DNA of 64,000 nucleotides, from assembly GCA_905182575.1 (NCBI GenBank), contig CAJJCA010000002.1, positions 35,124 to 99,123 of the forward strand. Direction: 5' to 3'. The DNA comes from an uncultured Flavobacteriaceae bacterium (GTDB lineage Bacteria > Bacteroidota > Bacteroidia > Flavobacteriales > Flavobacteriaceae). Under the pieces are notes generated by a model. The model ran no database searches, was not told where the DNA came from, and saw only the letters and a program-made list of their open reading frames with translations. Shown here piece by piece: positions 55,910 to 64,000 of the stretch; within the stretch, counting starts at the first letter, position 1, and each line of letters opens with the position of its first letter. A program made the translations under genes and the position numbers.

Positions 55910-55983
55910 GGGGATGTAGCTCAGTTGGCTAGAGCGCTTGACTGGCAGTCAAGAGGTCGTGGGTTCGAATCCCATCTTCTCCA
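55910..55983 (+). tRNA. tRNA-Ala (GGC)
   Basis: GGGGATGTAGCTCAGTTGGCTAGAGCGCTTGACTGGCAGTCAAGAGGTCGTGGGTTCGAATCCCATCTTCTCCA; anticodon loop CTGGCAG. Confidence 0.93.
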
Positions 55984-56069
55984 CTCAAGTAATCACCGCT
56001 ACACTACAGACTTTAAATCAAAGGTCGTGCCACCTTAATTTAAGTTTGTGAGACATTTTACATACCTTT

Positions 56070-56102
56070 TTTGTGAGAATTATGTGAGAATGTATAACTT
56101 TG
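56070..56102 (+). promoter_or_regulatory. Candidate promoter for the integrase
   Basis: TTTG (56070-56073), 21-nt spacer, TAACTTTG (56095-56102), matching Bacteroidetes TTTG-N19-21-TAnnTTTG. Confidence 0.5.
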
Positions 56103-56105
56103 GAT

Positions 56106-57468
56106 ATGGCAATTCAAAAAGATGCATTATCAATTAAGTGGTATTTAGATGATCGGAAGATTAGATTTGAGGCCAGATTCTGCATTTTGTACAGCTCCTC
56201 TTAAAATTACACTCTATCACAGAAAGACTGGCGCGCGAAAACATATTCATGCAAATGAGTTTTTTACACGTGGGGAATGGGATAGCATAAGCCAGATAAA
56301 TACTTCTGCCCCTCCAAATGATGCAACTAAAAAACAGATTCAGCGTAAAGCCAACCTTGATGCTACAATTTCTAGGGTTAGATCTTTCAACAGCCCTGAC
56401 ATTCAAAGCTTGAGTCAGTTCATGCAGTTACTGACCGGCCCCGTTCTTTCCAACAGCTTAGGCCCGGCATATTTGTTTCAAATCTTTGACGCTTTTACAC
56501 AAACAAAAAACAATCCCTCCACTCGAGTCTGGTATGAAAGTGCGCGGAAAAAGTTTTATGAGTTTACAATGGTTCACATAAAAGGTAAAGACCCCTCCAA
56601 GTTTTTGGTAGCGGATCTTAATAAACGCTATATAGATTCTTTTAAATATTGGTATCAAGACCAGGATAAAAATAATTCAAGGGATGCTGCCTATTCATAT
56701 TTAAGAGGATTAAGGGGCGCTTTAAACTGGGCTATGAGACCCAAAACCAATAATAAGCCGAAGTACATTAAAAGGAGTCAAAACATTTTTTATACTGATA
56801 AAATAGTAATTCCAGAAGCTAAGAGGAGAGCTGAAAAACTTACTTTAAGTGAGTTTGAGTTTAAGCTGTTTCTTACAGTTGAAGCTTTATCTAAAGAAGA
56901 AGAAAGAGCTAAGGATCTTCAATTATTTATGTTCTTGTTTGACGGGATCCGGATCGGGGATGTAATGCGCTTGGAGCGAAGTGAAATTGAGGTACGCGAT
57001 GGTATTACATATTTAAATTTTAATCCTAAGAAAACGGATCAATACAATAAAGATGCAAGGGTTGAGATAACACCACAGCTGCAACATATAATGGATAGAT
57101 GGCCTGGAGACGATAAATATGTTTTTGATATTCTTTCACAGGACATGAACGAAGAAACGATTAGCAGAAAAATAAAGTCTAAAACAAGTACAATCAATAG
57201 AAACCTAAAAAAACTAAGCGATAGATGCGGATTAGAAAGGCGAATTTCAACCTATTCTGCTAGATACTCAATGAACCACTATTTATTGAGTAAAGGCTAC
57301 GCAACTAAAGGGCAACTATCCGCAATGATGGTAAACTCTCCAAAGGTTAGCGAAGGGTATTTTTCAGCTCGAGAGGAGAAATTTGGAATTCAAAGAAAGC
57401 TCGGAAACATTCTTGAACCAGAAGATGATGAAAAGATTAAAAAACAAAAAAGTGGAAGCAACCCGTGA
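56106..57468 (+). CDS. int: Tyrosine site-specific recombinase (phage integrase, SAM-like N-terminal domain); possible 5' frameshift near 56150-56200
   Basis: MAIQKDALSIKWYLDDRK in one frame then TAPLKITLYHRKTGARKHIHANEFFTRGEW; LQLFMFLFDGIRIGDVMRLERSEI; STYSARYSMNHYLLSKGY. Confidence 0.9.
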
Positions 57469-57762
57469 GTAGTGAATACTACTAGTAGACGAGTTATAAA
57501 CAAAAAATAAAGTTTATTAACATGATTTTTTTTAATTGATATGGATAAACTTTGAAGCGAATCCTTTTGCAAAACAAATAAAATAATGAGATTAGCAGCA
57601 TGAAATGTGACTTTTAAAATCACAGCATAAAAAAAGGTGGAAGCAACCCGTAAGGAAACCAACACCCTTAGTATCTAAATTTTGACGGTCTAGATACTCA
57701 AAGGTAAAAAAAGTTTTTTGAAGGTTGCCAAAGCAATTCATTAATTTAATTTTTTTTACAAA

Positions 57763-58101
57763 ATGAGTAAAGTAATTACAACAATCGAAACCACTCCTGA
57801 GGAGTTAGTTTCAAAACTAGCAAAAGTCATCGATCAGAGGATCGAGACACTTCACAATCAAAACAATGTTGCCGAGAAGCCGGTTAAAGTGCCGGAGGTT
57901 TCTCAGTTCCTGGGGAACTCTCAAAATTGGACAAGACGAGAAGCTAAAGCCGGTCGCCTTCCCGCGCACCGGAATACCATCCACGGAGATTTTTATTTCT
58001 TTTTCAGTGAGATCGTTGCTTGGATTAAAAAGGGAAGAATTGTTTCAACCGCTGAGATTAAGGAAAAAGCAGAAATGTATGCTAACTCTAAAACCTTTTA
58101 A
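57763..58101 (+). CDS. Helix-turn-helix DNA-binding protein (excisionase/AlpA-like)
   Basis: KVPEVSQFLGNSQNWTRREAKAGRLPAHRNTIHGDFYFFFSEIVAWIKKGRI. Confidence 0.75.
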   Translation: MSKVITTIETTPEELVSKLAKVIDQRIETLHNQNNVAEKPVKVPEVSQFLGNSQNWTRREAKAGRLPAHRNTIHGDFYFFFSEIVAWIKKGRIVSTAEIKEKAEMYANSKTF

Positions 58102-58103
58102 TC

Positions 58104-58271
58104 ATGGAAAAGACATTATTTAGACTACAATTTGACACTTCAGATCAACTAGAAGACATTAAAAAAGAGACACTTTTTAAAATCATATACATTACCGAAC
58201 CTAGACACAATTTAGGGTATTACCAACCAGGCGAAGTCATTTGCGCGCTCAATCAAACAACTGCGGCATGA
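58104..58271 (+). CDS. Small 55-aa ORF between HTH and ATPase genes (not in ORF track)
   Basis: MEKTLFRLQFDTSDQLEDIKKETLFKIIYITEPRHNLGYYQPGEVICALNQTTAA*; stop overlaps the ATPase start (ATGA). Confidence 0.5.
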   Translation: MEKTLFRLQFDTSDQLEDIKKETLFKIIYITEPRHNLGYYQPGEVICALNQTTAA

Positions 58272-59269
58272 GCGATAAAAACAAAACTCCAGAGGCTGTA
58301 AATCAGTTTCTGGAGGATAAACAGACCATCGCTGAAAAAGAAGTATATGAAACTCCAGAGGGTTGGGTTAGCGCATATGAACTTTACAAAAGAAAAACAA
58401 AGGACTATGATTATTTAATAGATGACTTGTTTTTAAAATCTGGTATAAGTACAGTCTATGGTGTAGAGGACACTGGGAAATCACAATTAGCATTATTTCT
58501 GCTTTTAAGCGTGGTTTCTGGCAAAGACTTTCTAGGACTTAAGATTAACGCTAAACATAAGCGAGCACTGCTTATAACTACCGAGGATCAAGAAGAAGAT
58601 GTCGCGGTAAGGCTTAATAATATGGTAGATAATTCAGATTATTTAGCAGAGAATTTATCTAGAATTGATACCAGGTACACCGCCAAGGACATTACAAAAA
58701 GTCTTGAGGATTATATTAAAACAAGAAAAGTTGATTTGGTGGTCATTGACTGTTTCGGTGATATTTTCCCACATGACATGAAGATGCTCAATCACACAAG
58801 GGTTTGGCTTCAGGATTTCTACGAGTTAACCACTAAGCATAAGTTTCATTTGATGTTCGTGCATCACTCAAAGAAAGACTCTGAAGATAAATTACCACAC
58901 AAAAGTAATTGCTCCGGTGTCGGTTTAACTGCTAAAGGAAGAACTGCTATTGAGTTTAGAAAAGATCCTGAGGATTTGGACAAAAGACATATCTGTATTG
59001 TTAAGGCAAATTTTCTGTCTGAAGAAAAAAAACAAGACAGTATTGAAATCAAATTTGATCATGGGAATTTTATAAAAACTGGAAATAAACAGTTCGATAT
59101 GTTACTCGTTTCTAAAGATGAAAAGGACATACTTCAAAACAATGTTTTGGAGATGAAAAACAAGGGAAAGAACCAAGATGAAATAGCCGAAAAATTGGAC
59201 TTAAAACAGTACCAAGTTTCCAGGATTTTAAAGCGCGCTAAACATCAAGAAAAATACAGTGAAAAATAG
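58268..59269 (+). CDS. RepA-like AAA/RecA-fold ATPase with C-terminal HTH
   Basis: Walker A GVEDTGKSQLALFLLL; ALLITTEDQEEDVAVRL; VDLVVIDCFGDIF; C-terminal NQDEIAEKLDLKQYQVSRILKRA. Confidence 0.85.
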   Translation: MSDKNKTPEAVNQFLEDKQTIAEKEVYETPEGWVSAYELYKRKTKDYDYLIDDLFLKSGISTVYGVEDTGKSQLALFLLLSVVSGKDFLGLKINAKHKRALLITTEDQEEDVAVRLNNMVDNSDYLAENLSRIDTRYTAKDITKSLEDYIKTRKVDLVVIDCFGDIFPHDMKMLNHTRVWLQDFYELTTKHKFHLMFVHHSKKDSEDKLPHKSNCSGVGLTAKGRTAIEFRKDPEDLDKRHICIVKANFLSEEKKQDSIEIKFDHGNFIKTGNKQFDMLLVSKDEKDILQNNVLEMKNKGKNQDEIAEKLDLKQYQVSRILKRAKHQEKYSEK

Positions 59270-59285
59270 CTAAAAAAGGCAAAAT

Positions 59286-59410
59286 ATGCAGTATGCAGAC
59301 TCCTAGGGGAATGCATATTGCATATGCACCTGCATATGCACTTGCATATAATTGAAATACAGCAAGTTACAAAGTATGCAGTGCTTGCATAAAAAACACC
59401 CCCTATGCAT
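59286..59410. repeat. Iteron-like TGCATAT / TATGCA cluster, with a core 12-bp tandem repeat at 59319-59352
   Basis: TGCATATGCACC TGCATATGCACT TGCATATAAT; TGCATAT at 59312, 59319, 59331, 59343, and further TATGCA copies on both sides. Confidence 0.7.
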
Positions 59411-60484
59411 AATTTAAATCACTCAGAAAATAACGACCAAAAAGAGGCAAATATTCGACAACTTTTTGACTCTATTTTGACAGGAAAAATCACGAAATCT
59501 GGAGCTCTAAAAAATGGAGTTAAATGGTACAAATCAAATTGTCCTTTACCGGGTCATTTAGACAAAAATCCGAGCTTCAATTTTAACTACTCTGGAGGAT
59601 GGACTTGTTTCGCTTGCAACAAAAAAGGAGATGCTGTTTTACTTGCAAAAGAGTTAAATCTTGATCCAAAACCATATTACAATAATTCAACTGATCAAAT
59701 GGGCTTGATAAGCCTACCTAGATTTGACGATAGAGGCCCTTTAAAGGTTGCTCACAGAAACGAATATAAATATGTAGAGGATATAACATATTTTAGAAAA
59801 ACGCTTAATAAAGAGCTTTACAATAAGAATAATTTAGCACTCTATTACAAGAAAAAATTTGGTAAAAATGCAGCGCTTTTAATTCTTGGTCAATACCTTA
59901 TTGGAACTGGAAATAATGGATCAGCGATATATTGGTACGCGGATTATAACAATAACCTTTGCCTAAGTAAAACCATGCAATACGACCGAAATGGTCATAA
60001 AAACGGCCTTGTCACTACTGACTATTATGGCATACCAGACAGGAATCGAAAAAAACCTTTGTATGGCGAATGGCTTGCAAGAAAATATAAAAAGTCTATC
60101 TGTATTCACGAATCAGAAAAGACAGCGAGCGTCATGAGTATTTATGATCGATCCAAAGTTCATTTAGCGACAGGCGGTGTTTCATACCTAGATCTAGAGG
60201 CATTGAATGTTTATGGAAACAGGGAGCTCATTTTTTATCCAGATGTTGATGCTCATCAAAAATGGTGTGACCTAGTAAAAAAGATTAAACCCAAGAAAGG
60301 TCAAAACATTGAAGTACAAGACACCTCGATGTTATGGGAGTTAGATAATTTAGATGTTCCACCAAAAGGAGATTGTGCAGACTACCATTTTGATAATGTG
60401 GACATAAGGTATGATCCAGAGTGGAACAATTGGCTAAAAGAAAACCAACATTTAGTTGGGCCTATGGGGTTGAGTAGGAATTAG
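59405..60484 (+). CDS. CHC2 zinc-finger primase-like protein with Toprim-like C-terminal region (DUF6371-like)
   Basis: SNCPLPGHLDKNPSFNFNYSGGWTCFACNKKGDAVLLAKEL; KSICIHESEKTASVMSIYDRSKVHLATGG...LIFYPDVDAHQKW. Confidence 0.85.
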   Translation: MHNLNHSENNDQKEANIRQLFDSILTGKITKSGALKNGVKWYKSNCPLPGHLDKNPSFNFNYSGGWTCFACNKKGDAVLLAKELNLDPKPYYNNSTDQMGLISLPRFDDRGPLKVAHRNEYKYVEDITYFRKTLNKELYNKNNLALYYKKKFGKNAALLILGQYLIGTGNNGSAIYWYADYNNNLCLSKTMQYDRNGHKNGLVTTDYYGIPDRNRKKPLYGEWLARKYKKSICIHESEKTASVMSIYDRSKVHLATGGVSYLDLEALNVYGNRELIFYPDVDAHQKWCDLVKKIKPKKGQNIEVQDTSMLWELDNLDVPPKGDCADYHFDNVDIRYDPEWNNWLKENQHLVGPMGLSRN

Positions 60485-60579
60485 CCACGGTTGTAGATTA
60501 GCTTGTAATCGTATAATTGTGTTGCTACTAAAATATCACTATTATATTCTCTAACCGAATGAATTAAACCATCCTTCAT
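60481..60579 (-). CDS. 32-aa micro-ORF, overlapping the primase stop codon
   Basis: MKDGLIHSVREYNSDILVATQLYDYKLIYNRG*. Confidence 0.3.
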   Translation of the reverse strand: MKDGLIHSVREYNSDILVATQLYDYKLIYNRG

Positions 60580-60597
60580 TTTAAATTAGTTTTGAGC

Positions 60598-60687
60598 TTA
60601 ATAAGCTATTGAAAGATAAATCCTGTAGGCGAGATAAACTCCTGTTACTCCCCATATCCACCAACGGTTTTTTATGTACCATTCCAT
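60598..60687 (-). CDS. 29-aa aromatic-rich hydrophobic micro-ORF
   Basis: MEWYIKNRWWIWGVTGVYLAYRIYLSIAY*; single TM-like segment. Confidence 0.35.
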   Translation of the reverse strand: MEWYIKNRWWIWGVTGVYLAYRIYLSIAY

Positions 60688-60834
60688 TACACTAATATAT
60701 AAACTTTATGAAGAACCACAACTATAGAAAAAATATGTTTACAATGTGTTACACTATGCATTCATATACAATATTGACTTGACTTGAGGTGGGGTTGTGT
60801 CGTATCTTAATGGTTATAATTTAAAAGATAACCA

Positions 60835-60966
60835 ATGGAATATTTAGATGAAATAATTAGCATGAGGGTCAAGCCTTCTGAAAAAGAAAAGATCAAATTA
60901 AAGGCAGCTGAACAACAAATGAAGGTCTCTTCATATATAAGGCTCAAACTCTCTGAGGACCTCTAA
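60835..60966 (+). CDS. 43-aa ribbon-helix-helix-like protein (not in ORF track)
   Basis: MEYLDEIISMRVKPSEKEKIKLKAAEQQMKVSSYIRLKLSEDL*, with the ISMRVxPSEKEKIKLKAxEQxMxVSSYIR pattern. Confidence 0.65.
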   Translation: MEYLDEIISMRVKPSEKEKIKLKAAEQQMKVSSYIRLKLSEDL

Positions 60967-61025
60967 TCATATTAAAATAATATAAAATAATATGCTCAAT
61001 AGAATGCATTATAAGAAAATTAAAG

Positions 61026-61310
61026 ATGCCGTTTAAATCTGGACACAAACTCTCGAAAGGAAGGCCAAAGGGATCAGGAAACAAAGTGTCTGAAGATCTA
61101 AAAAAACACATTGCAGATTTACTTGCCTATAAGACTGAGCGAGATTTTTCAGATCTTGATACGATGTCTCCCTATGAACGGCAGAGGTTAAAAAATGAGC
61201 TACGGAAGTACGTACACCCTACGATGAAATCTATAGAAATTGATCCGAATCCAGTAAACGAAGACGAGCCTAAAATGAGTTTAGATGAGTTCTTTAAATG
61301 GAAAGACTAG
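61026..61310 (+). CDS. GRPKGS-motif protein (terminase-small-subunit-like / DUF5681-like)
   Basis: FKSGHKLSKGRPKGSGNKVSEDLKKHIADLL...LDTMSPYERQRLKNELRKYVHPTMKSIEI. Confidence 0.6.
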   Translation: MPFKSGHKLSKGRPKGSGNKVSEDLKKHIADLLAYKTERDFSDLDTMSPYERQRLKNELRKYVHPTMKSIEIDPNPVNEDEPKMSLDEFFKWKD

Positions 61311-61443
61311 GTGTTTTCTGAAATATCCGCAACTGTTGGTGACACTCTTAATTTAAATCACTCAACCGACACTGGAGAAGTAGCTTTTTCATCTAATCTA
61401 ATTTATTCATACAATATACAAAACTGCTTTTAAAGCTTGTTTT

Positions 61444-61692
61444 CTATTCTCCTTTTAGCATTTTTTTAAATGCTTCTAAATCAAATTCATTACCATAAAA
61501 TAAAGTGCTCATTTTCATTATATCAGCAGCAATAAGAACCGCAGTTTTTATTTCATCTTCAGACGCTCCTAGCCTCTTTAATTCAGAAATATGATAAGGA
61601 ATACAGTATTGACATTTGGTAGCTGCAGAAGTCCCAAGTGCTATTAAATGAGCTTCTTTTTCAGCTATTACACCTTCTTTATATAGACCCAT
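61444..61692 (-). CDS. Carboxymuconolactone decarboxylase (AhpD-like) family protein
   Basis: MGLYKEGVIAEKEAHLIALGTSAATKCQYCIPYHISELKRLGASEDEIKTAVLIAADIMKMS with CxxC. The reading frame stays open upstream without an ATG. Confidence 0.8.
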   Translation of the reverse strand: MGLYKEGVIAEKEAHLIALGTSAATKCQYCIPYHISELKRLGASEDEIKTAVLIAADIMKMSTLFYGNEFDLEAFKKMLKGE

Positions 61693-62598: not shown

Positions 62599-64000
62599 TT
62601 AAGGACAAGTCCCCCACACCGGTCTGTTAACGTTTATTAAGGATGAACCTGGTGCAAAAGCAGTTGGTTCAGTTGTAATATTTGTGACACACCAACCTGT
62701 TAGGTCTTGATCGAAATGCTGTTGCACCGACTAAACATATTACTCCATATCAGTCACCGCTGCAGGTATTCCAAGAGCCTATATCTTGATTGAATGCTGA
62801 GTTGCACCAAGAAACACAGCCTCCATATTAGTAGACTGCTGCAGTATTCCAAGAGCTTATATTCTTGATTGAATGCATTGCATGAAAACATAATGATGCC
62901 ATATTAGTAACTGCTGCAGTATTCCAAGAGCTTATATTTTGATTAAATGCTCCGGCACCTCTAAACATACTATCCATATTAGTAACTGCTGCAATATTCC
63001 AATTTCCTATATCTTGATTGAACGCAATAGCAAATTGAAACATACCTCCCATATTAGTAACTGCTGCAGTATTCCAAGAGCTTATATTTTGATTAAATAC
63101 AGTTGCACTATAAAACAGGTCACCCATATTAGTAACTGCTGCGGTATTCCAACTTCCTATGTCTTGATTAAATGCTGTAGCTATATAAAACATAGCTGCA
63201 TATTAGTAACTGCTGCAGTATTCCAGACCCTATATTTTGATCAAATGCAGTTGCTGAATTAAACATAGCCTTCATATCAGTCACACTAGAAGTATCCCAA
63301 CTTCCTATGTCTTGATTGAATGCTGTTGCATCGTTAAACATCCATTCATATTAGTCACACTTAGAGGTATTCCAACTTCCAATATCTTGATTGAATGCTG
63401 TTGCTAGATAAAACATAGCATACATATTAGTCACACTAGAAGTATTCCAATTCCTATGTCTTGATTGAATGCATACGCTTGTAAAAGCATAGCATCATAT
63501 TAGTCACACTTGAAGTATTCCAACTTCCAATATCTTGATTGAATACTGCTGCACCTAAACATACTCGCATATTAGTCACATCTAGAAGTATCCCAAAAAC
63601 CAATATCAGAGTTAAAAGAGGTATTATTTAGAAATAAATTACTCATATTAGTCACCTGCGTAGTACATAAATTATAATTAGCTGCTGCAACTTGAGTTTT
63701 TATAGATGTATCATCCACCACCGTATAGGTTACTCCATTAATCACTTCTGTGTCTCCTACTGTTGCAGTAGGACATTTACAGATCTCATTATCAAAATAA
63801 ATTGACAACGCTACACCTACAAATAGGTTTGTTGGCTTCAGCTAAAGCTGACTCATTGCTAAAAAGAGAAGGTTCGAGAGTAATATTAGTAACACACCAT
63901 TTAGTTAAATCTTGGTTAAATACAATAGCTATTCTAAACATATGGCTCATAGTAGTCACCTTACTCACATCCCAACTCCCAATATCTTGATTAAAAGCAT
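62599..64000 (-). CDS. BspA-family leucine-rich repeat surface protein, continues off the right edge; many frameshifts
   Basis: ~25-aa repeats ([25 protein letters not shown]); terminal [37 protein letters not shown] stop at 62599-62601. Confidence 0.88.
62750..63660 (-). repeat. ~75-bp tandem repeats encoding BspA/DUF285 LRR units
   Basis: Recurring (ca)tattagtaactgctgcagtattccaa...cttatattttgattaaatgc and a second subtype with tcacactagaagtattcc. Confidence 0.85.

Follow-up and report, generated by a model that had tools for sequence, protein, structure and literature searches.

The gene block at tRNA-Ala and the island around it

We analyzed a 64,000-nucleotide stretch of contig C2 in the genome of an uncultured Flavobacteriaceae bacterium (G000:C2:35124-99123, hereafter the window), whose last base coincides with the contig end, and focused on a gene block at positions 55910-61310, a candidate phage satellite resembling the phage-inducible chromosomal islands (PICIs). 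Genes were annotated from a list of open reading frames (ORFs), with ARAGORN for tRNAs and with Pfam and PHROGs profile searches of the window proteins. The original prediction for this DNA had named, on one strand, a tRNA-Ala(GGC) followed by an integrase, a helix-turn-helix (HTH) protein, a RepA-like ATPase, a CHC2 primase, a ribbon-helix-helix (RHH) protein and a protein with the motif GRPKGS, and our searches confirmed all of these; the six protein genes lie downstream of tRNA-Ala, where it had placed them. No relaxase, conjugation, capsid or tail genes were found among the Pfam matches of the stretch, again as predicted. The features are as follows.

55910-55984, + strand: tRNA-Ala (GGC), the integration target (ARAGORN; empty site in the sister genome G020)
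55933-55984, + strand: core of the left attachment (att) site, attL, the 3' part of tRNA-Ala (94% repeat at G000:C3:8214-8265, attR, beyond the window)
56047-56089, + strand: three TGTGAGA repeats, putative arm-type integrase sites (one further + strand copy in the 64-kb window)
56149-57468, + strand: tyrosine integrase int1 (Phage_int_SAM_5, E 3e-8; PHROG integrase, E 3e-9)
57763-58101, + strand: HTH_17 protein, excisionase/AlpA-like regulator (PF12728, E 1e-6; phrog_66, 'excisionase and transcriptional regulator', E 9e-6)
58104-58271, + strand: 55-amino-acid ORF between the HTH_17 and ATPase genes (ORF only; no family match)
58241-59269, + strand: RepA-like ATPase (AAA_25) with a C-terminal HTH (PF13481, E 1e-20)
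59405-60484, + strand: CHC2 zinc ribbon / DUF6371 primase (PF01807, E 1e-5; PF19898, E 4e-25)
60599-60723, - strand: 125-bp repeated segment with a 29-codon hydrophobic ORF (copies in the same genome on C5, 100%, and C13, 93%)
60835-60966, + strand: 43-amino-acid RHH protein, NikA/MobC-like (PF21983, E 3e-8)
61026-61310, + strand: GRPKGS protein, candidate small terminase (TerS) (relatives precede the large terminase, TerL, in phage contigs; profile match 99.1%)
61020-61373, + strand: block 92-96% shared with HUH mini-elements on C4 and C26 of the same genome (sequence comparison)
62599-64000, - strand: BspA-like repeat array reaching the contig end, island content (ORFs; a similar array opens C3)

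The original prediction described a minimal element ending at 61310. Our results did not bear out this boundary. A seed search rightward in the window for a copy of the tRNA 3' end of at least 10 bp found none, local alignments of the sequence right of the block with the tRNA 3' end scored no higher than shuffles, and an attR near 61310 was therefore rejected. A 52-bp copy (94% identity) without a tRNA gene was found on another contig of the genome, at C3:8214-8265. A further tyrosine integrase gene, int2 (L009:6754-7743, minus strand), starts 471 bp from this copy, and a second, diverged GRPKGS gene (L009:6167-6382) lies 1.8 kb from it. BspA-like repeat arrays stand in the same orientation at the end of C2 and the start of C3. 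In the sister genome G020, the left flank and the tRNA matched at 91-92%, and CATTATTAATAGGGGTTCAC was found directly 3' of the tRNA; the same sequence follows the C3 att copy. Because CATTATTAATAGGGGTTCAC abuts the tRNA in G020, the site is unoccupied in this genome, and the inserted DNA covers the terminal part of C2 together with the initial 8.2 kb of C3. Thus, the block belongs to an island that measures 16 kb or more and lies at tRNA-Ala. The empty-site search that had been proposed for this locus succeeded for the island as a whole, with an empty site in G020 and an attR on C3, and failed to find an attR for int1 alone.

The presence of two integrases suggests that the island consists of tandem elements, one comprising int1 and the window genes and the other int2, the second GRPKGS gene and attR. 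In related att-bounded elements the integrase adjoins the tRNA fragment, as int2 does, whereas int1 adjoins the intact tRNA. The TGTGAGA repeats between the tRNA and int1 fit arm-type integrase sites, a predicted function, and the shared block at 61020-61373 is probably the right part of the int1 element. The BspA-like surface genes next to the block may be cargo. Such arrays recur in the genome (62599-64000, C3:1-1901, C26, C17, C13 and C20), several of them with an outer-membrane barrel partner; they often lie within a few kilobases of tRNA genes (Ala, Ser, Val, Arg, His), and many are broken into several frames.

The sequence 3' of tRNA-Ala varied among most of the 13 genomes of the genus that were compared, and one of them (G213) carries two extra tRNA-Ala fragments, one next to an integrase-like gene. 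A search for RepA in the genus, covering its 21 other genomes, gave a single weak match (E 4e-4) and nothing convincing. The tRNA-Ala site is an integration hotspot and not core sequence, and together with the empty site in G020 this variability upholds the earlier proposal of integration at tRNA-Ala. Findings that would speak against that proposal, namely conservation of the block as core sequence with no variation in its integration, or neighboring genes for a relaxase, type IV secretion or phage structure, were looked for and did not appear. Searches of the whole 71%-complete genome for relaxase PF03432, TraG PF19044 and Terminase_6N PF03237 found none, other relaxase families not being searched genome-wide.

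GRPKGS relatives and the large terminase

The GRPKGS family was represented by an alignment of 15 members (A1), a core subset of which (A3) was used to scan IMG/VR; the phage proteins formed a separate alignment (A5). Members of A1 combine an AT-hook-like head with a helical region. The IMG/VR scan with A3 yielded 12 loci with relatives, and 10 of the 12 genes directly precede or overlap a gene for a protein of about 408 amino acids (two are cut by the contig end). Three of these neighbors were tested and proved to be large terminases (phrog_2, E ~1e-50; Terminase_6N), and the remaining ones matched a model built from the tested terminase set. A gene directly before TerL occupies the small-terminase position, which is thus the position of these GRPKGS relatives. 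Profile comparison of A1 with A5 gave 99.1% (E 1.5e-18, 76 columns), a score possibly raised by the one clear DUF5681 member in A1 (L179). Furthermore, phrog_15261 was matched by both A1 and A5. In named phages, a DUF5681-like relative overlaps TerL in Rhizobium phage RHph_N3_2 and lies three genes upstream in phiPMW. The window protein had no Pfam match of its own, including to DUF5681, and matched phrog_15261 only at E 0.006. Altogether, these results make a TerS function for GRPKGS plausible, on the grounds of gene position and profile similarity and not of structure, and they strengthen the earlier guess of a TerS-like protein, as does the gene order kept in att-bounded relatives.

The search for a helper in the genus gave one contig with a large terminase (G205:C119, L299), a phage contig that had been binned with one of the genus genomes and that also carries a tail-sheath-like gene. 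We considered this contig as a possible helper and rejected it, since it is T4-like by its neighboring genes and lacks GRPKGS.

Related elements in cellular and viral genomes

Of 200 other genomes of the family, 27 encode relatives of the primase, most of these being about 30% identical to it, and many of the relatives lie within integrase - HTH - ATPase - primase blocks. GRPKGS relatives were found in 12 other genomes among 400, adjoining a tRNA or tmRNA gene at nearly all loci examined. Nine loci in other genera are bounded by att repeats and define elements of 5.1-10.1 kb at tRNA or tmRNA genes, each with an integrase and usually with HTH_17 and a replication gene; the att repeats at tmRNA are short (13-15 bp only). 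Eight of the nine carry a GRPKGS gene, and in the ninth (L052, at tRNA-Asn), which has the order integrase - HTH - RepA - primase, none was detected. The closest by site is Flaviramulus basaltis (L178/L296), where a 7.4-kb element with nearly the same core is bounded by an exact 48-bp repeat at tRNA-Ala(GGC). Wocania and Gramella carry at tmRNA an integrase, a first unassigned gene, HTH_17, a second unassigned gene, Rep, primase, GRPKGS and a small ORF, in that order, and DUF5906 is present in the relative L188. RHH is absent from most relatives, and there GRPKGS directly follows the primase. The PICI-like gene order of the original prediction is therefore supported, as it is kept in att-bounded relatives of other genera.

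Some of the blocks in other genomes carry further genes. In three other Flavobacteriaceae (L044, L047 and L055), a full set of type I restriction-modification genes comes after integrase, HTH, RepA and primase; in L041 a NACHT-type protein takes its place after the primase block. At another locus (L187:5008-10653), a 49-bp copy of the 5' part of tRNA-Met lies beside an integrase, an unusual 5'-end att site, and the 5.6 kb between the tRNA and this copy carry a YadA-like protein, GRPKGS and a homologue of the HUH protein described below.

IMG/VR contained no close relatives of the window primase, the window GRPKGS protein or the HUH protein, and genome_contigs contained none of the window primase. 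Distant IMG/VR relatives were reached only with A3 and with a primase alignment (A4, 91 loci), A1 being too diverse for scanning. Exact terminal repeats are a sign of circular assembly, and seven contigs from the two scans have such repeats of 114-127 bp, one of them (L249) being phage-like. The circular contigs also include L196, L213, L221, L222, L226 and L236. The circular contig L222 (6,180 bp) encodes an integrase, a 224-amino-acid protein, HTH_17, AAA_25, a DUF6371 primase, GRPKGS and a lipoprotein; its gene order is that of the window, and structural genes are absent. A second one, L196 (5,576 bp), carries a serine recombinase, HTH_17, a VapE/DUF5906 helicase and GRPKGS. The third, L236 (IMGVR_UViG_3300012942_000311, 8,791 bp), encodes a prohead protease, a capsid protein and a canonical TerS (Terminase_2) together with an integrase, HTH, RepA and a DUF6371 primase, with no TerL or portal recognized, and has the appearance of a small Bacteroidota satellite that forms its own capsids. 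In L226, the second gene after the primase encodes a weakly Sf6-TerS-like protein (E 0.0016). Because L236 has packaging genes beside the primase set, with the weak L226 match in addition, at least one relative uses the stretch after the primase as a slot for packaging genes. Across the nine att-bounded elements and L222 (86 proteins), no relaxase, capsid, portal or TerL family occurs among the 25 most frequent of 37 Pfam families, the other 12 being matched by at most one protein each.

The same genome also contains smaller elements with GRPKGS. On C4 (340-1503, L159), beside tRNA-Thr(GGT), a 150-amino-acid HUH protein is followed by RHH and GRPKGS, and on C26 (3735-4895, L145), beside tRNA-Ser, a 150-amino-acid HUH protein is followed by GRPKGS. 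No integrase was found in the stretches examined, and C4 starts at a contig end. The HxH and YxxK motifs are conserved across three diverged sequences of the HUH protein, the AlphaFold model of which is weak (pLDDT 41). An IS200-type transposase was rejected, as there is no Pfam transposase match and the two motifs fit a rolling-circle Rep better. A complete element in another genus (L181, 5.1 kb), also at tRNA-Thr(GGT), has the order int2-like integrase, HUH, RHH, a 183-amino-acid protein and GRPKGS. The three near-identical GRPKGS copies in G000 (61026-61310, L159:403-693 and L145:3798-4085) differ almost solely in the first ~20 codons, and the final two thirds of the window gene are identical in DNA to the C4 copy. 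Judging from this pattern, the DNA-binding AT-hook head has possibly been exchanged among the copies by recombination.

Interpretation and comparison with known systems

The reading that we consider fairly probable is a tandem island at the tRNA-Ala hotspot in which the block represents a PICI-type phage satellite with a TerS of its own, or what is left of such a satellite. The element probably moves in phage particles, because it has the genes to insert and copy itself, carries no genes for its own exit and encodes a packaging-like protein. If the window copy is still active, the integrase would insert the circular DNA at the tRNA 3' end, and the HTH_17 protein would serve as excisionase or regulator. 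The excised circle would be copied by RepA and the DUF6371 primase. GRPKGS, as small terminase, would then bind the satellite DNA through its AT-hook-like head and direct the TerL and procapsids of a helper phage to it.

Several observations weigh against this reading. No helper phage with a GRPKGS-type TerS was found in the genus, and no separate attR was found for int1. The join of C2 to C3 is putative, because the barrel partner gene and similar arrays recur in the genome. By frame inspection, an integrase-like N-terminus starts at 56106 in a different frame, so that the start of int1 is possibly damaged by a frameshift. The window GRPKGS protein is divergent, and TerL adjacency was seen only in its relatives. 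AlphaFold modelled the window protein weakly (pLDDT 66, pTM 0.26), and a comparison with PDB profiles returned no terminase, the sole match being an HMG-I/Y AT-hook peptide that was not significant (E 0.24). In Bacteroides phage BF1-TP2, a relative is not beside TerL. The last three results would suit an AT-hook regulator that travels by chance with replication or early phage genes. We hold that identity to be rather unlikely, as 10 of the 12 IMG/VR relatives lie directly before TerL and a circular relative (L236) has a canonical TerS and capsid gene near the same place.

The possible int1 frameshift, the short RHH protein, a truncated gene at 61444-61692 and the numerous fragments of such elements that recur across the genome would also be expected of a decayed island, formerly a satellite or an integrated replicon and now immobile. 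This is unlikely in our view, because the replication genes and GRPKGS are intact; the DNA identity of GRPKGS with the C4 copy suggests recent exchange, and since the BspA arrays are frame-broken too, some of the frameshifts may be sequencing errors. An integrative mobilizable element with only an origin of transfer (oriT), in which RHH would be a relaxosome accessory and another element would supply the relaxase and mating pore, appears quite improbable. The RHH protein matches NikA-like and MobA/MbpA models, and Bacteroides plasmid records show the order integrase - HTH - ATPase - DUF6371 primase followed by MobC and a relaxase. However, the island has no relaxase, the genome lacks PF03432 and TraG within the limits given above, RHH is missing in most relatives, where GRPKGS comes right after the primase, and the neighbors of GRPKGS are genes for phage packaging and not for mobilization.

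On a broader level, we tentatively propose, as a possibility to which we give somewhat less than even weight, that these elements form an undescribed, Bacteroidota-wide satellite family marked by an AT-hook-type TerS, GRPKGS. Its replication module would be freely exchanged (AAA_25 with the DUF6371 primase, D5-/DUF3987-type helicases or a small HUH Rep), and its terminase head would be swapped by recombination, which would change the DNA that is packaged. If so, the HUH type (L181, 5.1 kb) would be one of the smallest tailed-phage satellites. Flavobacteriia play a major part in degrading marine algal matter. Satellites would be the likely vehicle of the cargo observed in relatives, which comprises type I restriction, NACHT-type, Fic and surface-protein genes. 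The GRPKGS marker, before TerL in phages and after Rep in islands, would allow such satellites to be found across the phylum, and helper hijacking becomes directly testable in named strains, e.g. Flaviramulus basaltis and Wocania arenilitoris.

Previously, PICIs were reported from Firmicutes and Gammaproteobacteria (PMC10803314), and further satellite families from a few other groups (PMC10803314, PMC11389934); VEIMEs and tycheposons, marked by packaging in marine virions or vesicles and by characteristic sets of genes, are mentioned in PMC11389934. The literature searched contained no description of satellites in Flavobacteriia or Bacteroidota, and as many subscription papers lay outside its coverage, the novelty is provisional. 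Charybdis elements (PMC12324425) were rejected as a match, as their hosts are archaeal and their genes different. Mobilizable elements of Bacteroides (e.g. NZ_OY725936, NZ_OY725959) are similar in having an integrase, HTH, an ATPase or DUF3987, a DUF6371 primase and RHH/MobC after the primase, but they carry a relaxase, in whose place GRPKGS stands here; with PF03432, the one relaxase family searched for genome-wide, absent, the block differs from a relaxase-bearing integrative mobilizable element. Capsid-forming PICIs find a parallel in L236, with prohead protease, capsid and TerS genes beside those for integrase, HTH, RepA and primase, whereas the window element has no capsid genes of its own and L236 has no recognized TerL or portal.

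The phage-inducible chromosomal minimalist islands (PICMIs) of Vibrionaceae (PMC10803314) are close in logic: they are about 6 kb, with an integrase, an HTH_17-type AlpA and a primase and without capsid remodelling, and the Wocania relative shares with them a DUF5906 helicase. They are defined by an integrase, AlpA and a DUF3987/DUF5906 primase, of which the window has the integrase and HTH_17, its primase being DUF6371. Integration at fis is a PICMI hallmark (PMC10803314), and because the elements described here lie at tRNA or tmRNA genes (tRNA-Ala in the window), PICMI was excluded as the family; they also add the GRPKGS TerS candidate and have unrelated hosts. PICIs, among them the SaPIs (Staphylococcus aureus pathogenicity islands), remain the nearest comparison. 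The window holds an integrase, an AlpA/Stl-type regulator (HTH_17, by sequence) and a primase-replication module (AAA_25 with CHC2/DUF6371), and its sequenced part, outside which the C2-C3 gap lies, has neither a full phage structural set nor conjugation genes. Unlike PICIs, these elements have Bacteroidota hosts, an AT-hook-type TerS candidate and, here, a DUF6371 primase, with no capsid-remodelling gene seen and no helper known here. Like PICIs and SaPIs, they combine an integrase, an HTH regulator, a primase-replication module and a TerS candidate in att-bounded elements of 5-10 kb that are free of structural genes.

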